Shown here piece by piece: positions 21,392 through 49,353 of a DNA stretch of 64,000 bases; within the stretch, counting starts at the first letter, position 1; each line of letters opens with the position of its first letter. The stretch covers positions 62,001-126,000 of the forward strand of contig CALXRG010000005.1 of assembly GCA_944390825.1 (NCBI GenBank), given 5' to 3'. Under the pieces are notes generated by a model. That model had not been told where the DNA came from, searched no databases, and was given only the letters and a program-made list of their open reading frames with translations. This DNA is from an uncultured Akkermansia sp. (lineage in GTDB: Bacteria; Verrucomicrobiota; Verrucomicrobiia; Verrucomicrobiales; Akkermansiaceae). A program made the position numbers and the translations under genes.

Positions 21392-21517
21392 TTACTTCTT
21401 GTCAACAACGACAGGAGCCGGAGCGACGGTCTCCGTCGGCTGCTGCTGTTGCTGCTGCTGCTGCTGGCAGGAAACGAGAGCGGCAGCGGCGATAGCAAGA
21501 ACGGCGATGGTCTTCAT
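21392..21517 (-). CDS. 41-residue poly-glutamine lipoprotein, copy 1
   Basis: The ORF is short. A signal sequence (MKTIAVLAIAAAALVSC) ends in a lipobox, LVSC, with Cys17 as lipidation site. Nine Gln (residues 18-26) follow, then PTETVAPAPVVVDKK. The product is predicted to be a lipid-anchored peptide of only 25 mature residues. The Gln tract is encoded by CAG codons with one CAA. A near-identical gene lies 226 bp upstream in transcription. I do not recognise a characterised family and assign no function. Confidence 0.75.
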   Translation of the reverse strand: MKTIAVLAIAAAALVSCQQQQQQQQQPTETVAPAPVVVDKK

Positions 21518-21617: not shown

Positions 21618-21743
21618 TTACTTCTTGTCAACAACGACAGGAGCCGGAGCGGGAGTCTCCGTCGGCTGCTGCTGCTGCTGCTGCTGCTGCTGGCAGGAAA
21701 CGAGAGCGGCAGCGGCGATAGCGAGAACGGCGATGGTCTTCAT
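21618..21743 (-). CDS. 41-residue poly-glutamine lipoprotein, copy 2
   Basis: It is the same length and nearly the same sequence as copy 1: signal sequence with LVSC lipobox, nine Gln at residues 18-26, then PTETPAPAPVVVDKK. The only residue change seen is Val to Pro in the tail. All nine Gln codons are CAG, an unbroken (CAG)9 tract prone to slippage. A sigma70-type promoter lies about 70 nt upstream. The duplicated unit includes the GGGAAG/CTTCCC inverted repeat just after each stop codon. Confidence 0.75.
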   Translation of the reverse strand: MKTIAVLAIAAAALVSCQQQQQQQQQPTETPAPAPVVVDKK

Positions 21744-26225: not shown

Positions 26226-26341
26226 TGAGGTTGTGAGAATGAACGTGTGGTTGTGAGGATGGGAGTGGTTACGAGGATGGGGGTGTGGTTGTGAGAATGG
26301 ACGTGAGGTTGCGAGAATGGACGTATGGTGATGCCTGGACG
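26226..26341. repeat. 20-bp minisatellite between pstB and phoU
   Basis: Five head-to-tail copies of a unit like TGTGGTTGTGAGAATGGACG start at 26226, 26246, 26266 (18 bp), 26284 and 26304. A degenerate sixth runs 26324-26341. No spacers separate the units, so it is not a CRISPR. Confidence 0.85.
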
Positions 26342-36908: not shown

Positions 36909-36952
36909 GAATGCACGTAGCCTCTGGGAGGAATGCACGTAGCCTCTGGGAG
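36909..36952. repeat. 22-bp perfect tandem duplication
   Basis: A 22-bp sequence starting GAATGCACGTAGCC occupies 36909-36930 and is repeated exactly at 36931-36952, upstream of the glycosyltransferase gene. Confidence 0.9.
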
Positions 36953-37134: not shown

Positions 37135-39198
37135 ATGGCAGTGAGCAGTACACGGCGTCAGTTTTTGGCCGGGTTGGGTGCCCTGGCAGCGCTGGCGCTG
37201 CCTGCGTGCCGCCGGGCGCAGCAGTATGCTGTGGAGCCGGAGGATTGCCCGGAGTGGGTGCGTGCGGGTGAGGCTACGGCGTTTGCGACGTCGATGCCTT
37301 GGGCGAGTGGGGCGGTGCCGCTGCTGGCGCTTTGCCACGGTGGGCTGCCGACATCGCTGGTGCCGAATCCTCATGCGGCGGCGTGCCGACCAGGGTTGCC
37401 GGCACTGGTGCAGGCGGCGCTGCTGGATGTGTATGACCCGGGTCGGGAGCGCGTGGCGCGTTTTAATGGTGGGGAGTTCCCGCTGGAGGGGGTGCGGGGC
37501 GCGCTGCGGGGATGGAGTCAGGCGCTGCGCGAGGGGCTGAGGCTGGCGCTGCTGCTGCCGGGGGGGCATTCTGCTGTGAGGCAGGCGCAGGTGGAGGCGT
37601 TGCGCGGGGTGAGTCCGGGGTTGCGCTGTTATAGCTGGGATCCTGTGGAGGAGCCGCGCCCGGAGGTGTTCCCGGAGCTGGAGCGTCAGCAGGTGGCGGC
37701 TCTCGGTGCGGCTGTGCGTTTTTCGAATGGTTATGCGGCGACGGGGGAGCGCGCGCTGGTGGTGCTGACGGATTTGCTGCGCCGTGGGGAGTTGGATTTG
37801 CTGCTGGTGATGACGCCGGCGGATCCGGCGGCGCATTCGCCGACGTTTGCGGAGGCTCTCCGGGTGACGGAGGCGGCGACGCTGCGCTGTTGCTTGCGGC
37901 GGGATGTGACGGCGGATTGCTGCCAGTATACGGTGCCGCAGACTCATTTCCTGGAGGAGTGGGGGGCGGATGCGGATGCGTGTGGTTGCTGGTGTTTGCG
38001 GCAGCCGGTGATGCTGCCGCTGGTGCCGGCTTTTTCTGAGGCGGAGTTGCTGGACGCGCTGATCCATGGGGGGGATTTGCCGGCGGTGGGGGGAGCTACC
38101 CCGTTTTCGCCGGCTCGGGATTGGGTGGCACGTGCGCTGGGTGGGGGTGAGGCTTTGGAGCGGGGGTTGAGGCGGGGGTTGGTGCCGGGGGCTCCCCGGC
38201 CGGTTGCGCTGCCGGTGGCTGCTGCGGGTACGCCGTATTTGCATCCGCTGGTGGTGGATGGGCGTTTTTTGCATAATGCTTGGTTGCGGGAGGTGTTTGA
38301 TTCTTTGAGTGGTTGCGCGGGTCTTCCCCCGGTTTTTGTGCCGGGGGAGGGGGCTGAGCTGGGGGGATGGCGGGTTTCGCGCTGGCATTTGCCTTGTGTG
38401 CGGGTGCCGGGTTTGTCCCATGGCTTGCTGCCGATGCTGCCGGGTGTGGCGGCGGCGATGTCGGTATCGCAGATGCCCGGCCAGCCTGCGGAGGCTCCCG
38501 CGCTGCCGGTGCAGCGGTCATGTGAGGCTCCGGAGCTGGTGGAGCAGGCGTGCGCGCCGGTGCAGGGGGCTTCTCCGCAGTGGGGGATGCGGATTGATTT
38601 TGGGGCTTGCATCGGTTGCCATGCGTGTACGGTGGCGTGCCGTGCTGAGAATAATATCCCGACGGTGGGGGCGGAGGAGCAGCGCAGGGGACGCGATTTG
38701 CAGTGGCTGCGTATTGATCGCTATCTCGACCGCACCGGGCGCGTGTGCTTTTTCTTGCCCAGTGCTTGCCGCCAGTGTGAGCAGGCTCCGTGTGAGTCGG
38801 TGTGCCCGGTGAATGCAACGGTGCATACGGCGGCTGGGCTGAATGCGATGGTGTATCCGCGCTGCTGGGGAACGCGCTACTGCGCGGCGGCATGCCCGTA
38901 TCAGGCGCGTACGTTCAATTTTTATGATTATGCCCGGGAGGCGTACCATGAGCAGAAGTTGCCGCCGAATCCTGCGGTGACGGTGCGTTCGCGCGGGGTG
39001 ATGGAGAAGTGTACGTATTGTGTGCAGCGTATCAATGCGGCGAAGGTGAGCGGGGAGCGTCCGCAGGCGGCTTGTGAGCAGGCTTGCCCGGTGGGGGCTA
39101 TCCGTTTGCTGGATTTGGTGCGGGAGCCCATCGGGCGGGCGGTGGTGAACTTTGATGCGGCTCAGACGCGGCCGCGGACGCGTTATGTCAGGGGATGA
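37135..39198 (+). CDS. ActB-like Tat-exported iron-sulfur protein (orphan)
   Basis: The 687-residue protein starts with a twin-arginine signal (STRRQFLAG, Arg7-Arg8) and a lipobox-like LPAC (Cys25). A degenerate molybdopterin-oxidoreductase-like region fills about 40-470. The C-terminal ferredoxin domain has four Cys clusters: C492/495/498/502, C545/548/553/557, C577/583/587 and C626/629/647/651. This matches the ActB subunit of alternative complex III or related quinol-oxidising complexes, which carries electrons through a Fe-S wire. It is shorter than typical ActB, and no ActA, ActC, ActD, ActE or NrfD-like gene is next to it. It overlaps the SNF2 gene. Confidence 0.8.
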   Translation: MAVSSTRRQFLAGLGALAALALPACRRAQQYAVEPEDCPEWVRAGEATAFATSMPWASGAVPLLALCHGGLPTSLVPNPHAAACRPGLPALVQAALLDVYDPGRERVARFNGGEFPLEGVRGALRGWSQALREGLRLALLLPGGHSAVRQAQVEALRGVSPGLRCYSWDPVEEPRPEVFPELERQQVAALGAAVRFSNGYAATGERALVVLTDLLRRGELDLLLVMTPADPAAHSPTFAEALRVTEAATLRCCLRRDVTADCCQYTVPQTHFLEEWGADADACGCWCLRQPVMLPLVPAFSEAELLDALIHGGDLPAVGGATPFSPARDWVARALGGGEALERGLRRGLVPGAPRPVALPVAAAGTPYLHPLVVDGRFLHNAWLREVFDSLSGCAGLPPVFVPGEGAELGGWRVSRWHLPCVRVPGLSHGLLPMLPGVAAAMSVSQMPGQPAEAPALPVQRSCEAPELVEQACAPVQGASPQWGMRIDFGACIGCHACTVACRAENNIPTVGAEEQRRGRDLQWLRIDRYLDRTGRVCFFLPSACRQCEQAPCESVCPVNATVHTAAGLNAMVYPRCWGTRYCAAACPYQARTFNFYDYAREAYHEQKLPPNPAVTVRSRGVMEKCTYCVQRINAAKVSGERPQAACEQACPVGAIRLLDLVREPIGRAVVNFDAAQTRPRTRYVRG

Positions 39199-42498: not shown

Positions 42499-45400
42499 TT
42501 ATTCTTTCTCGGCGGATTTGATCCAGCCTGAGAAGATGCGCGCGGTGGCGGGCATGACCAGCAGGTTGAGGATGGTGGCGCTGACAAGACCGCCAAATTG
42601 AACGATGGCCAGCGGGGCGAGCAGTTCGCCGCCGGGTTGGTCTTTCGCCCAGACGAGGGGCAGCAGGCCAAGAATGGTGGTCAGCGAGGTCATGATGATG
42701 GGGATGACGCGCTCCCGGGAGCCTTCGCGGATGGCTTCATCGACACTCAGGCCGCTTTGCTCGAGTGAGCGGTAGCGGTTGAGCAGGATGAGGCCGGAGC
42801 GGATGGCAAAGCCGATGACGGTCACAAAGCCGATGATGGAGCTCACGGAGAGGATGGGCGGGATGTAGTGCCCGGTCATCAGGGAGTGCATGGTGTCGCT
42901 GGAGGCGAGGAAGACGGCGATGATGCCGCCGACCAGGCAGAGCGGGATGTTGATGAGGGTGATGACGGCGCGCCTGACGCTGCCCAGTGAGGTGGCCAGC
43001 AGCAGGACGATGAGGACGCAGACGATGCTGCCGAGGATGTAGAGCCGCTTGCCGGCTTCTTCCCGGCTTTTGATGGTGCCGGCGTAGTCGACGGTGCAGC
43101 CCATGGCGTTCATGGCGGGATCGAGTTTCTCACGGCAGGCGTCGGCGAGGTCGCCGAGGTTGGAGTCCAGTGAGGGGTTGCAGGAGATCATCGCTTTGCG
43201 GCGGGTGTAGTCGCGCAGGATGAGGTTGGTGACTTCGGTGCGGTAGACTTCCGCGACGTCGCTGAGTCTCATCGTGCGGCCGCCCGGGGCGACGAGCTGG
43301 AGGTTGCGCACGTCATCGACGCTCTGACGCAGCTCGGGGTCGAGGCGCAGCATGATGTTCCAGCGGTCGAGGTTGCGGATGACTTCGCCCATCTTGAGGC
43401 CGTTGAGGGCGGCGGAGACTTGCTCGGCGGCTTCCGCTACGGTGAGGCCGCAGGCGGCGAGGGCTTCCCGGTTGTAGTCGACGCAGACGGTGTCGACCAT
43501 GACTTCACGGTTGGCCCGGGCATCGGCTACTTCCGGCATTCCCTGGAGGATCTCGGCGGCTTTTTTGGCGGCGGCGCGGATTTGCGGGAGTTCATCGCCG
43601 TAGATGTTGATGGCGATTTCGGAGTTGGAGCCGGAGAGGGCGTTGCTGATGCGGTGGGCAAGCGGGAAGCCGATCATGCCGCTGGCGCCGGGAATGCTGC
43701 GCAGTTGCTGCTGGATTTGCTCGCGCAGTTGGCGCTGGTTTTTCTCCAGGTCGACGCGTACGACGAGTTCGGAGGCGGAGACGGGTTCGGCGTGTTCGTC
43801 ATTTTCGGCGCGTCCTGTGCGCTGCGCGACGGTTTTGACGCCGTCGATTTGTTGCAGTTCGTGCATGACCTGGCCGGAGATGCGCTCGGTTTCTTCCAGT
43901 GAGGTGCCCGGGACGGCGTTGACAAAGACGGTGTAGCAGTCCTCATTGAAGGGTGGCAGGAAGCTGGTGCCAAAGGTGGAGGCCAGCCAGAGTGAGGCGC
44001 CGGTGAGCACGAGCAGTGAGCCGAAGACGGTTTTGGGGAAGCTCATGCAGAAGTTCAGAACCGGGGTGTAGAGGCGCTTGATGAGGCGCGCCGAGGCGGA
44101 GTCGCCGCTGCTGTTGGAGGCGTTGGCTCCGGGGGTGTTGGCTGTGGCTCCGGGGAGCTGTGCCGTTGCGCTGGTTTCTGCTGTTCCGTTGCTGCCCGGT
44201 TTGCCGGTTTTGAACCACATGAGGCAGAGCACGGGGATGATGGTGATGGACACCAGCAGGGAGGCGAAGAGTGCCAGGATGTAGGAGATGCCCAGCGGAC
44301 GGTAGAATTGACCTTCCAAGCCGCTCAGGAAGAGCAGGGGAACGAAGACCAAAATGATGATGACGGAGGAGAAGCTGATGGAGCTGACAATCTCGCCTTT
44401 GGCTTCCATGAGCACGGCAATGCGCGATTTTTGCTGCTCCGGCGGCAGCGCGGCGTTGCGGCTCAGGCTGCGCCAGGCGTTTTCGACGAAGATGATGGCG
44501 TTGTCGACGACGTCACCTACCGCGACGGCAAGGCCGCCCAGGGTCATGATGTTGATGGCCAGACCGAACACTGGGAAGCAGGCCATGCCCAGCAGGACGG
44601 AGAGCGGCATGCTTACGAGGGTAATCAGGGCGGTGCGGATGTTGAGCAGGGTCAGGAAGATGACAATCATCACGACGATGCCGGCAATGTAGAGGGTTTC
44701 TTTGCCGTTCTCCAGGGAGAGGGTGATGAAGTCTGCCTGCCGGTAGGCGTCGGCGTGCAGTTTCATGTTGGCCGGGAGCTGACTGGAGGCAAACTCGCGG
44801 ACGGCTTTGTCAACGGCCTGGGTGAGCTCCATGGTGTTGGCACCGGGTACTTTCTGCACGGAGAGGATGACTGCCTGCTGGCCCTGGAAGCCCGCGTTGC
44901 CGCGGCGGGGAGCGCCGTCGATGCGCACGTCCGCAACGTCTTCCAGCCGCAGGACTCCACTCGGATGGCCGGGGACCAGGGTGCGTTTGATGTGCTCGGG
45001 AGTCATGGCGCGCGAGGCTTGCTGCACGGGCAGTTCCTGCCCGGCGACGTCTTCGAGGTAGCCGGCAGGGACGCTGCTTTGGGAGGCATCGACGGTGGCT
45101 TTGAGATCATCGAGGGTGATGCCGGCCTGGCGCATTTTTTCGGGGTCGAAGAGAATCTGGTACTCCGGCAGGCGGCCGCCCAGCACGGTGACCTGACCGA
45201 CGCCGGGAATGGACATGAGGCGGTTGCGCAGGTCAAACTCGCCGACGCGCCGCATGTCCAGCGGGTCGGCGGTTTCATCCCCGGTGATGGCGATGAGCAT
45301 GATCTCACCGGTGACGGAGACGATGGGGGCCATCTCGCACTCAACGTTGTCGGGCAGCATCTCGCGCACGGTGGACAGGCGCTCGGAGACGATTTGGCGC

Positions 45401-45714
45401 GCGAGGTAGATGTCCGTATCCCAGTCGAAGTCGACCCAGACGAAGGAGAGGCCGCCGGCGGATGAGGAGCTGACGCGGGTGACGCCGGGGGTGCCGTTCA
45501 TGGCGGATTCCAGCGGGATGGAGATGTATTGCTCAACTTCTTCGGCGGAGAGGCCGCCGGCTTCGGTCTGGATGGTGACGCGCGGGACGTAGAGCTCGGG
45601 GAAGACATCGACAGGCAGTCGGCTGACGACGACGGCGCTCAGCAGGGCGAGCGCCAGGGTGAGGATGAGAACCGTGACGCGGTTTCTCAAACAGAAGTCC
45701 AGGAGGGCATTCAT
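42499..45714 (-). CDS. Heavy-metal RND efflux pump, inner-membrane subunit (CusA/CzcA-like)
   Basis: The 1071-residue pump has the RND layout: helix 1 (VTVLILTLALALLSAVVV), a large periplasmic loop, helices 2-6, a second loop and helices 8-12. ELYVPRVTIQTEAGGLSAEEVEQYI and GGLAVAVGDVVDNAIIFVENAWR (helix 4 with the proton-relay Asp) place it nearer the CusA/CzcA metal branch than the AcrB drug branch. A low-complexity Thr/Ala/Asn/Ser-rich stretch (about residues 515-545) lies in the middle cytoplasmic loop. It works with the adaptor and outer-membrane channel encoded upstream in the same operon. Confidence 0.93.
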   Translation of the reverse strand: MNALLDFCLRNRVTVLILTLALALLSAVVVSRLPVDVFPELYVPRVTIQTEAGGLSAEEVEQYISIPLESAMNGTPGVTRVSSSSAGGLSFVWVDFDWDTDIYLARQIVSERLSTVREMLPDNVECEMAPIVSVTGEIMLIAITGDETADPLDMRRVGEFDLRNRLMSIPGVGQVTVLGGRLPEYQILFDPEKMRQAGITLDDLKATVDASQSSVPAGYLEDVAGQELPVQQASRAMTPEHIKRTLVPGHPSGVLRLEDVADVRIDGAPRRGNAGFQGQQAVILSVQKVPGANTMELTQAVDKAVREFASSQLPANMKLHADAYRQADFITLSLENGKETLYIAGIVVMIVIFLTLLNIRTALITLVSMPLSVLLGMACFPVFGLAINIMTLGGLAVAVGDVVDNAIIFVENAWRSLSRNAALPPEQQKSRIAVLMEAKGEIVSSISFSSVIIILVFVPLLFLSGLEGQFYRPLGISYILALFASLLVSITIIPVLCLMWFKTGKPGSNGTAETSATAQLPGATANTPGANASNSSGDSASARLIKRLYTPVLNFCMSFPKTVFGSLLVLTGASLWLASTFGTSFLPPFNEDCYTVFVNAVPGTSLEETERISGQVMHELQQIDGVKTVAQRTGRAENDEHAEPVSASELVVRVDLEKNQRQLREQIQQQLRSIPGASGMIGFPLAHRISNALSGSNSEIAINIYGDELPQIRAAAKKAAEILQGMPEVADARANREVMVDTVCVDYNREALAACGLTVAEAAEQVSAALNGLKMGEVIRNLDRWNIMLRLDPELRQSVDDVRNLQLVAPGGRTMRLSDVAEVYRTEVTNLILRDYTRRKAMISCNPSLDSNLGDLADACREKLDPAMNAMGCTVDYAGTIKSREEAGKRLYILGSIVCVLIVLLLATSLGSVRRAVITLINIPLCLVGGIIAVFLASSDTMHSLMTGHYIPPILSVSSIIGFVTVIGFAIRSGLILLNRYRSLEQSGLSVDEAIREGSRERVIPIIMTSLTTILGLLPLVWAKDQPGGELLAPLAIVQFGGLVSATILNLLVMPATARIFSGWIKSAEKE

Positions 45715-45810: not shown

Positions 45811-47295
45811 TTAGTTGTCTTCGCCTTCATGGAATTTGCCGTCGGCGTGGAAGTGACCGGCTTTCTTTTTGGCCCCTTCCCCAGGCAGGATGTATTTGAG
45901 TTCATAGCCGCCTTTGACGACGATACGCTGGCCGGGTTTGAGGCCTTTGACTGGTGTCATGCCGCGGCGGCTGGTGCCGGCCTGGACTTTCATCATGGCG
46001 AACTTGCCTTCGGCAACCTCGACGAAGACGACGTCATCGACGCCGACCTTCACAATGGCGGAATCCGGGATGGGGATGCTGCCCTGGCTCTGCTCCGAGT
46101 CGTCGTAGAGGTCGAGGCGGCAGAGCTGGCCGGCCGGGACGCCGGCGGGCATGCTTTCCGGGGTGAAGTAGAGGGTGCGGGTGAGTTTCTCCGGGTCGAC
46201 CTGCTCGGCGAGACGCCAGCTGCCCCGGACGGTGACGTTGTCGCGCCCGACGGGGATGGTGGCACGCACCTGGTTAAAGCGAGGCATGTTGCCGGCGTAG
46301 AGCGTGCCGATGATTTCCATGGCGTTGGTGTCGCTCATGGTGAGAACGGGAGCTCCCTGTTCCCCCCAGCTGCCCTGGGAGATGCCGACGTTGCGCACGA
46401 TGCCGTCCTGAAGGGCGCGGACCACCAGCACCTGCATGCCGTCCTGCTCGGTGGCTTCGCCGCCGAAGGTGATGGCGCGCAGGCGGATGCGGGCGGTTTC
46501 CAGCTCCCGCTCGAGCTGCCGCTGCTCGGCGAGTTTGAAGGTGCGCTGCTCTTCCAGTTCACTGTTGCGGCTGCCGGCGGAGGCGAGGCGGTCGAGGCGC
46601 TCCTGCATGGCGATGAGCTCTTCCCGGCTGCGCTCGAGGGCCGCTTCACCGCTGGCGACGGCTGTGATCTGCTCGGTGAGAGTCGGGGATGCCAGGGTGT
46701 AGAGAATGTCGCCTTTCCTGACCTGCTGGGCGGATTTGACGTGCAGGGTCAGCCGGCCGGCACAGGGCAGTGCGTAGGTGTTCATGGCGTGGTTGGGCGC
46801 GCTCAGGTAGCCGTACATGCTGTGGGTGAGGGCTTGGGTGGCTTCCGGGACTTCCTCAATCTGCATGTTGAGGATGTGGCGGGAGCGGGCGTCGGCTTCT
46901 ACGATGACGGCATCCCCCCCGGTGCAGACCTCCTCCGGGGCGTGGACGTGGCCGTGCGCCGCGTGATCGTGGTCGTGGCTTTCGTGTTCAGCTTCGTTGT
47001 GGTCTTCATGCCTGGCCTCGGTGTGGCTGCTGTGGTCGTGGTCTGCGGTGCAGGTGTCGCCAGCGTGCTCGGCGTGCTCAGCATGTTCAGGGTGCTCGGC
47101 GTGCTCGGCGTGCTCGGCGTGCTCGGCGTGCTCGGCGTGCTCGGCGTGCTTGTGCTCGGCATCTGACGGGGGTGCGCTGTCAGGATGTTCTGCGGTGCAC
47201 GGGGCGCCGTCGGTGTGGGTGTGGGGTTCGGCGGCTCGGGAGACGGGAGCGCAGGTCAGCGCGGTGGCAAGGGTGATGAGGATGGAAAGTTTCAT
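45811..47295 (-). CDS. RND efflux adaptor with His-rich metal-binding N-terminus (CusB/CzcB-like)
   Basis: The 494-residue periplasmic membrane-fusion protein has a signal peptide (about 1-21) and then a remarkable His-rich region. Residues 25-118 contain 26 His, including nine AEH/PEH triplets in a row (51-77), and end in DHDHAAHGHVH. From about residue 128 a typical adaptor follows with a barrel-sandwich hybrid domain, a helical hairpin (about 205-270), a beta-barrel and a membrane-proximal domain. A second His patch ends the protein (GHFHADGKFHEGEDN). It joins the pump to the channel and probably hands over Cu, Zn, Co or Ni; the metal cannot be told from sequence. Confidence 0.92.
   Translation of the reverse strand: MKLSILITLATALTCAPVSRAAEPHTHTDGAPCTAEHPDSAPPSDAEHKHAEHAEHAEHAEHAEHAEHPEHAEHAEHAGDTCTADHDHSSHTEARHEDHNEAEHESHDHDHAAHGHVHAPEEVCTGGDAVIVEADARSRHILNMQIEEVPEATQALTHSMYGYLSAPNHAMNTYALPCAGRLTLHVKSAQQVRKGDILYTLASPTLTEQITAVASGEAALERSREELIAMQERLDRLASAGSRNSELEEQRTFKLAEQRQLERELETARIRLRAITFGGEATEQDGMQVLVVRALQDGIVRNVGISQGSWGEQGAPVLTMSDTNAMEIIGTLYAGNMPRFNQVRATIPVGRDNVTVRGSWRLAEQVDPEKLTRTLYFTPESMPAGVPAGQLCRLDLYDDSEQSQGSIPIPDSAIVKVGVDDVVFVEVAEGKFAMMKVQAGTSRRGMTPVKGLKPGQRIVVKGGYELKYILPGEGAKKKAGHFHADGKFHEGEDN
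47062..47145. repeat. 9-bp tandem repeat encoding AEH triplets
   Basis: GTGCTCGGC (read on +) is repeated almost perfectly across this stretch, inside the adaptor gene. Unit length is a multiple of three, so copy-number changes keep the frame and only alter the number of AEH triplets. Confidence 0.85.
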
Positions 47296-48626
47296 GGTTT
47301 GTGGAAGGGGTTGAGGTAGAGAATTTGGGTTTGGACGTCCAGAAGCTGCTCGAGGCAGTCAAGGTAGTTGATGTGACGCTCGAAGACTTCCTGCCGTGAG
47401 CCGGCCAGAGCGGGCATGCCGATTTCGCCGATGGCGAAGAGGGCTTCCTGACGCTGCTCGGCATCGCGCAGGACGCCGAGGTTGGTGAACTCCTCCCGGC
47501 AGTGCTGGAGGGCGAGTTGCTGGCGGTCGGAGAGGGCAGCGGCGTTGCGCAGCAGGGCTCGCCACTGGGAGATGGCATCGTGGTGGCGGATGTCGCGCTC
47601 TGCGTTGGCGGCGGCGATGGCTTCGCGGTTGCGGTTCCAGAGGGGGATGTTGAAGCCGATGGTGGGTTTGAGCTTGTCCACGTCATCCGCTCGCTCCCAG
47701 CCCATGCTCAGGGAAAGCTCGGGGTACTGGCGGCGGATTTCGCGGCGCAGTTCCTGCTCGCCGGCTCCGTAGCTGGCCATCAGGGCTTTGAGTTCGGGAG
47801 ATTCCAGCAGGGCGTCGCCGTCCGCTACCGGAAGAGCCGCCGGCAGTTCGCGCGGCAGGGAGCCCTGAAGCTCGATGTCGCGCATGTCCGGGTGCAGCCC
47901 CAGGAGATTGACGAGTTCCAGGTGCTGCTGGAGGTGCAGGTTGTCCAGCTCCTGGAGTGCTTTCGTGGCGTCGAAGGTGCGCTGGTTGGCCAGCTTGAAC
48001 TCGGCAAACTCGACCTCGCCGAGTTCATAGAGTTTGGCGATCTTTTCTTCCTCGTCGCGCAGCCGGGTGAGGCGGGTGCGCATCAGCTGCTGCTTGGCGT
48101 GGCTGACCATGATGCGGTGACGCAGGGTGTCGAGCTGCTTGAGGAAGTCGCGTTCCTGCGTGCGCATGGTCCAGTAGTCCGCTTCTTTGTATTGCTCAGC
48201 GATTTTGGAGGCCAGGGCGGGCAGGCCGGTGACAGGCAGGGTGAGCCCCGGGTTGTAGGTCTGCCCGGTGGCGTAGGGGCTGAGGGTGTAGGCGAGTTCG
48301 GTGGAGAGTGAGGGGTCTTCCCACAGCCCGGCAAACTCGGCAATGCTGGTGGATTTGGCGTAGGTGAGGCGGGCCTTGTTCAGATCGGGGTTCAGCATGA
48401 GGCCGATGTTGTGCAGATCGGCCAGGCTCAGGGCGGGTTTGGCGCAGAGTTTGCGCGAGAGGGTGAGCCACTCCGCGGTGTTGCGCTGCAGGTCGAGGGG
48501 TTTGGCTGTGTAGACGGTGCAGGCTGCCAGCAGGCCCAGCAGAAGGACGGTGCCGCAGCGTAGGGCTTTGTGCCGTGCCCTATGGTGTGGGGTGTGAGAG
48601 GTGATGAGCGGAAGGTGAGGGTGCAT
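47292..48626 (-). CDS. Outer-membrane efflux channel (TolC/CusC-like lipoprotein)
   Basis: The 444-residue protein has a lipoprotein signal ending in LLGLLAAC (Cys36) and two outer-membrane-efflux repeats with long helices (about 150-230 and 350-430). ISQWRALLRNAAALSDRQQL and ELGEVEFAEFKLANQRTFDA are typical coiled segments. It forms the outer-membrane exit duct of the tripartite pump. Its stop overlaps the adaptor start by 4 nt, so the two are translationally coupled. The N-terminal 20 residues before the hydrophobic core are His/Pro-rich. Confidence 0.9.
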   Translation of the reverse strand: MHPHLPLITSHTPHHRARHKALRCGTVLLLGLLAACTVYTAKPLDLQRNTAEWLTLSRKLCAKPALSLADLHNIGLMLNPDLNKARLTYAKSTSIAEFAGLWEDPSLSTELAYTLSPYATGQTYNPGLTLPVTGLPALASKIAEQYKEADYWTMRTQERDFLKQLDTLRHRIMVSHAKQQLMRTRLTRLRDEEEKIAKLYELGEVEFAEFKLANQRTFDATKALQELDNLHLQQHLELVNLLGLHPDMRDIELQGSLPRELPAALPVADGDALLESPELKALMASYGAGEQELRREIRRQYPELSLSMGWERADDVDKLKPTIGFNIPLWNRNREAIAAANAERDIRHHDAISQWRALLRNAAALSDRQQLALQHCREEFTNLGVLRDAEQRQEALFAIGEIGMPALAGSRQEVFERHINYLDCLEQLLDVQTQILYLNPFHKP

Positions 48627-48885: not shown

Positions 48886-49353
48886 TCAAATGAGCAGGGG
48901 GCGTGGTCGCTCGCCGGGTAGGGGGCGGGCCATCCACGGGTGCTCGTCGGGGAGGGGTATTTGCGCGAGCTGCCAGACGGGCAGGGGGACGCAGGCTTGA
49001 TGCATCAGCGCTGCCGGGCAGGGGGGAAGCTGGGCCTGGATGGAGCAGAGGCTCAGCTGGTAGGCCATGTAGTCGCAGTCATGCGGGGAGCCGGGTTGCC
49101 CGGCCGGGGGAGATGCCGGAGCGGGGCTGCCCGAGCCGGACCGGTCGCTGGCGGCCGGTTGAGGCTGGCAGCAGTCGCAGGAGCCGGTGAGTGCTGCATC
49201 CCCCTTTTCCTGCTGGCTGATCTGATGGCAGGAGCAACCGGCAATGTACATCAGCCCTTCGCAGGCACACAGGTGCGTCAACGACCCCCCGACGACTGCC
49301 GGAAGCATGGCCAGCAGAAGGAGTACTGCGAGGAGGGGACGGGGCTGTCTCAT
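48886..49353 (-). CDS. Cysteine-rich exported protein
   Basis: The 155-residue protein has a signal peptide (about 1-23) and 11 Cys: 29, 31, 40, 42, 59, 61, 62, 93, 103, 112 and 121. The closely spaced motifs CAC, CSC and CDCC alternate with His27, His43 and His91, which suggests soft-metal binding. It is the gene upstream of the metal efflux operon on the same strand and has its own promoter. I recognise no family. A metallothionein-like or copper-chaperone role is an inference. Low-complexity Ser/Pro/Ala lies at about 65-88. Confidence 0.65.
   Translation of the reverse strand: MRQPRPLLAVLLLLAMLPAVVGGSLTHLCACEGLMYIAGCSCHQISQQEKGDAALTGSCDCCQPQPAASDRSGSGSPAPASPPAGQPGSPHDCDYMAYQLSLCSIQAQLPPCPAALMHQACVPLPVWQLAQIPLPDEHPWMARPLPGERPRPLLI

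Follow-up and report, generated by a model that had tools for sequence, protein, structure and literature searches.

The window analysed here, a 64,000-nucleotide stretch of a contig from an uncultured Akkermansia sp., encodes the periplasmic adaptor of a putative metal efflux pump, and the N-terminal part of this adaptor is crowded with histidines. The question raised by this locus is whether such a tail is a product of repeat slippage that the protein merely tolerates or a working part of the pump. The adaptor (membrane fusion protein) belongs to a tripartite pump of the HME-RND type, as judged by its open reading frame, profiles and fold; the frame lies on the minus strand (45811..47295), begins with ATG and encodes 494 amino acids. 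A hydrophobic stretch read from the sequence indicates an N-terminal signal peptide at residues 1 to about 22 (47230..47295), with an inferred cleavage site, and the AlphaFold model places a helix at residues 4-14 within it. In the same model residues 15-126 are unstructured, and a confident core begins at about residue 127-128 and ends at about 470 (residues 127-470, 45886..46917, pLDDT mostly above 90). This core is composed of a barrel-sandwich, an alpha-hairpin (204-276), a beta-barrel and membrane-proximal strands.

The original prediction described the gene product as a CusB/CzcB-like metal-efflux adaptor, and its assignment to the HME-RND type is supported by profiles, by the closest solved structures and by the predicted fold. 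ZneB is the best PDB match by sequence (E 1.7e-13) and also the best fold match (VIA-align Z 14.6, over residues 130-472), with CusB at Z 13.9. The HlyD_3 profile scores above its gathering cut-off (26.7 bits versus 22.2) and HlyD_D23 falls just under its own (26.8 versus 30). The adaptor has the HlyD/CusB fold of RND-type periplasmic adaptors, and its gene is clustered with those of an RND permease and an outer-membrane factor. It scores below the curated cut-offs of TIGR00999 for CzcB/NccB (61.1 bits versus 319.3) and TIGR01730 for RND_mfp (56.6 versus 94.9), and the permease scores below that of TIGR00914 for CusA/CzcA HME permeases (604.5 bits versus 701.45). Therefore, we assign the pump to a divergent HME-type branch; the adaptor may work like CzcB/NccB even though it lies outside the TIGR00999 cut-off.

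The minus-strand cluster comprises, in order, a small Cys/His-rich secreted protein, the outer-membrane factor, the adaptor and the permease. The TolC/CusC-like outer-membrane factor (47292..48626, 444 aa, OEP E 6e-13) shares 4 bp with the start of the adaptor gene, and the CusA/CzcA-like permease (42499..45714, 1071 aa, ACR_tran E 8e-225) has CusA as the top solved structure over its whole length (E 1.5e-110) and also matches ZneA (E 1.3e-90). The gene order is constant across the loci of the genus wherever sequence reaches far enough. The small protein of 155 aa upstream of the pump genes (48886..49353, minus strand) was recognized by its composition and position, and has no match in Pfam or NCBIfam. 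Cys-rich open reading frames occupy the matching position at most genus loci that have upstream sequence and in two outgroups; a small Cys-rich and often His-rich protein precedes the outer-membrane factor gene at many of the loci L033 to L064 and also at L085 and L088. Its position is thus conserved while its sequence is poorly conserved, and it is possible that this protein is a periplasmic metal carrier for the pump.

The His-rich, low-complexity region of the adaptor spans residues 25-118 (46942..47223, minus strand), has a pLDDT of about 40 and no secondary structure, and holds exactly 26 of the 33 histidines of the whole protein in 94 residues, as originally counted. Nine consecutive [A/P]EH triplets, also as predicted, occupy residues 51-77 (47065..47145, minus strand), starting at residues 51, 54, 57, 60, 63, 66, 69 (PEH), 72 and 75, with lone AEH triplets at residues 35, 46 and 102. 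The 9-bp DNA repeat proposed to encode them was recovered by TRF as an array at 47063-47150 with period 9, 9.8 copies, 89% matches and no indels. The periodicity score of the protein is 21, whereas 200 shuffles of its residues reached at most 6.5, and the codon pattern for (HAE)2H occurs in the 2.3-Mb genome only in the adaptor gene. Chance or low-complexity noise was rejected by this shuffle test and by the codon comparison within arrays of the genus described below. An assembly artefact was also rejected, given that the array in the window is just 88 bp and that arrays are found in a single-contig genome (L055) as well. Other short repeats lie elsewhere in the window. Between phoU and pstB (26229-26329) a 20-bp repeat (GGTTGTGAGAATGGACGTGT) is present in about five copies; part of it can be read as His codons on the minus strand, so it was considered as a histidine-coding repeat and discarded, being intergenic and outside any protein. 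Two (GCT)9 runs (21439-21466 and 21665-21692) are spaced by about 200 bp with no clear gene covering them, and a perfect two-copy 22-bp tandem repeat (GAATGCACGTAGCCTCTGGGAG, 36909-36952) lies just ahead of an iron-sulfur oxidoreductase-like frame at 37135.

We compared the adaptor across the genus, sampled as one genome per species. It was found in 67 of 76 genomes, and the comparison set, from which four redundant or fragmentary loci were left out, holds 66 distinct adaptors, 50 of them complete. Counted with the signal peptide, the part of the complete adaptors that precedes the core is 35 to 242 aa long and contains 3 to 65 His; 41 of the 50 carry 10 or more N-terminal His. Only the species of the window has the AEH array, which is absent from its closest relative, L002 (72% core identity); most other species have an array of their own. 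At least ten different repeat units are found across the genus: CSGHDHAAEHKHEH-type (L003, L004 and L007), EEHVHGPGCSHDHAA-type (most members of a 13-member clade), DAHGDHAHPHAEGEH (L032, nested within that clade), ADDHSH (L023), GGACKDEHDHDHE (L036 and L040), HDHANCSGHEHAAEGE (L037 and relatives), HEHGEGCTHDHAAE (a clade of 11), HLHTADCSHEAEAPKP (L057), HVHEDGTECSGNHEEPAT (L066) and HxHxxGxxCTxDHxH (a clade containing several single-contig genomes). Some of these units have a common HxHGxxCxHxH flavour that is present also in the outgroup adaptors L083/L084 and may be ancestral. Histidine makes up 24% of the N-terminal region in species with differing units, and the DNA period found by TRF is a multiple of 3 in all 53 arrays of the genus. 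The AEH unit is one among many, and its three-residue length is incidental; the conserved feature is the His-rich composition. Four adaptors of the family and order to which the genus belongs (L071-L074) combine the core and the C-terminal motif described below with an N-terminus that is not His-rich, so the tail is not essential to this pump type. Two draft genomes are unusual: G017 contains two different adaptors (L014 and L032) with different repeat units, which are either paralogues or the product of mixed species, and in G069 no adaptor was found in the draft, while contig C53:1-2964 carries a permease orthologue with one in-frame TGA and ends within the gene.

The proposal that copy number can change in frame holds in part, in that sister species of the genus differ in this way. 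L050 and L055, with 96.3% core DNA identity, differ by one 34-aa duplication (109 versus 143 aa). L051 and L055 (94.1% core DNA identity, each from a single-contig genome) are 36 aa apart in length, L015 and L016 (95.7%) are 13 aa apart, and L027 and L030 share a 21-aa unit, repeated about 2.3 times in the former and 6.7 times in the latter. L017 and L025 are equal in length, so array change is not universal. Draft contigs end within 750 bp upstream of the core in 15 of 57 cases, compared with 19 of 528 contig-bins elsewhere (P 5e-8), and this excess of ends inside arrays suggests that the arrays are long or heterogeneous; arrays truncated by such breaks are read as lower bounds.

In order to compare what is kept and what drifts within the tails, the copies within fixed-period arrays were aligned codon by codon, each distinct variant codon being tallied once per column so that a change copied by a later duplication adds nothing to the tally. 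Among all 32 arrays the His codons show 60 synonymous and 7 nonsynonymous variants, where under neutrality a fraction of about 0.2 should be synonymous. When each clade is represented by a single array (20 arrays), the ratio is 34:2 for His and 27:27 for the remaining two-fold codons (Asp, Glu, Asn, Gln, Lys, Cys, Phe and Tyr; Fisher P 6e-6), counts that keep some non-independence. Copies thus diverge, but not at His: the histidines are selected while the spacers drift. This result is for the arrays of the genus, the AEH array of the window having too few variant codons for a test of its own. Selection on His fits a metal-binding role for the tail.

The opposite end of the protein is of a different nature. 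The original prediction also named a His-rich C-terminus, which is real (GHFHADGKFHEGEDN, 3 His) and proved to be a conserved motif rather than a sponge. The motif, GHFHADGKFH at residues 480-489 (45829..45858, minus strand), is conserved in the adaptors of the genus and in outgroups: GHFHADGxFH occurs in exactly one copy in 66 of 66 genus adaptors, and GHFHADGxxH in eight outgroup adaptors, 25-40% identical, that represent further genera, families and classes of the phylum. Since the DNA pattern for GHFHADG gave chance matches outside adaptors (L095-L097), we relied on homologues instead. We found no report of the string HFHADG in the literature searched. In eight species that form one clade the N-terminal region has 3-4 His, and an extra acidic tail past the motif adds 3-8 His, compared with 0-2 past the motif in the 41 N-rich adaptors. 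This acidic tail looks like a relocated sponge, and its confinement to one clade points to one event. A ninth N-poor adaptor, L065, lacks the C-terminal tail as well.

The partner permease offers evidence on the metal. Its residues E640-H641-A642-E643 (43786..43797, minus strand) align with E599-G600-T601-D602 of ZneA, and H687 (43654..43656, minus strand) with D654, so that E640, E643 and H687 occupy the positions of E599, D602 and D654, which we take to be metal ligands in ZneA. H641 and H687 are invariant in 45 of 45 permeases of the genus and outgroups. At the positions of M573, M623 and M672, presumably the functional three-Met site of CusA, the permease has F, A and N. A Cu(I) pump, the CusB-like reading, is weakened because this site is absent from the partner permease; Cys recurs in many repeat units, and this would suit Cu(I) too. 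From these alignments the substrate is probably a borderline divalent metal, with Zn ranked ahead of Co, Ni and Cu(II). A search of plasmids gave no adaptor match at E 1e-8. Permease relatives do occur on plasmids of Magnetospirillum and Hymenobacter, the former with DEHAE and the matching second His, and the two adaptor relatives borne by these plasmids have neither the tail nor the GHFHADG motif.

Among known systems, ZneB/ZneA of Cupriavidus metallidurans (Zn) is closest to the adaptor by sequence and fold, and permease E640/E643 align with ZneA E599/D602; the adaptor is nevertheless only about 21% identical to ZneB in an alignment that begins past the His-rich tail, at residue 127-130, and the permease has His for D654 and Asn for D658. 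CusB/CusA of E. coli (Cu+/Ag+) resemble the adaptor and permease in fold, and differ by the methionine site and by the His-rich N-terminus of our adaptor. CzcB, from the CzcCBA pump of C. metallidurans (Zn/Co/Cd), is likewise an HME-RND adaptor encoded in the order outer-membrane factor, adaptor, permease, and extra periplasmic metal-binding sites are attributed to it, whereas the adaptor studied here scores 61 against a TIGR00999 cut-off of 319. CzcB has a His-rich N-terminus, so a tail of this kind on such adaptors is already known; we found no report of repeat-unit turnover in CzcB in the literature searched. A lineage-specific three-residue His repeat is also found in another metal-resistance protein, CopA of Cupriavidus STM 6070, where an inserted His segment contains (GHS)5 (PMC7060636), but this belongs to a copper resistance cluster in one strain and not to a pump adaptor. 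What looks new is that the units turn over while His is selected, that the His-rich part seems to have changed terminus in one clade, and that the C-terminus carries an invariant and apparently undescribed motif.

With slightly better than even confidence, we favor the view that the tail is a disordered segment acting as an antenna or buffer for metal in the periplasm, attached to the adaptor of an RND pump that exports a divalent metal, most likely Zn2+. Once the protein has been exported, the His-rich tail would form the start of the mature adaptor. Proteins with this adaptor fold form hexamers around the permease, as in CusBA and CzcCBA, and such an assembly would place six tails around the base of the pump, about 156 His here and up to about 390 in other species. 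These tails could raise the local metal concentration, and the metal they hold might pass to the invariant GHFHADGxFH site at the C-terminus, and from there reach the permease at its His/Glu site (H641, E643 and H687). Both termini of the adaptor should emerge from the membrane-proximal domain. A tail of this kind would need only many His and hydrophilic spacers, so we propose that it is continually rewritten by in-frame gains and losses of tandem copies, which would alter its capacity and leave the core unharmed. Metal binding, the identity of zinc, the hand-over and a tuning of performance by copy number are what we infer.

The main competitor to a buffer is a gate for flux control, in which the tail would sense periplasmic metal, idle the pump when metal is scarce and release it when loaded, so that length would set a threshold and not a capacity. 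This would match the role in flux control proposed for the extra periplasmic metal sites of Cupriavidus CzcB (PMC10127602; PMC11647595), and selection on His and the invariant motif speak for it equally. Species differ almost freely in unit sequence, in spacing and in length, however, and this is more in keeping with a buffer than with a precise switch; we regard the gate as rather unlikely and prefer the antenna or buffer.

A role apart from efflux, such as pH sensing, pump assembly, envelope attachment or a nutritional zinc store, seems improbable to us. His-rich disordered tails do serve as pH sensors or stores in other proteins, but here the tail is part of an HME-type adaptor, the permease that partners it carries invariant His at the positions of metal sites, and Cys recurs in many of the repeat units of the genus. 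We give least credence to the idea that the tails are neutral slippage products, tolerated because the N-terminus is disordered: copy number and unit do differ between close relatives and some relatives lack the tail, yet the protection of His codons (34:2 versus 27:27) and the 24% share of His in species with different units largely refute it for the genus.

A broader interpretation, which we advance tentatively and hold to be somewhat less than an even bet, is that these adaptors carry an evolvable metal rheostat: disordered His arrays that turn over in frame, are selected mainly for His content, can switch terminus and feed an invariant GHFHADGxFH hand-over site that would mark an adaptor subfamily of the phylum. 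The adaptors of the genus provide a case in which a disordered region of a bacterial protein is selected more for its composition than for its sequence. They also offer some 50 natural variants, with related cores and disordered tails of 3 to 65 His, so that an old question, whether His-rich tails on metal exporters store, deliver or gate, becomes testable by tail swaps. Akkermansia is a common gut genus, and its metal handling is therefore of practical interest.
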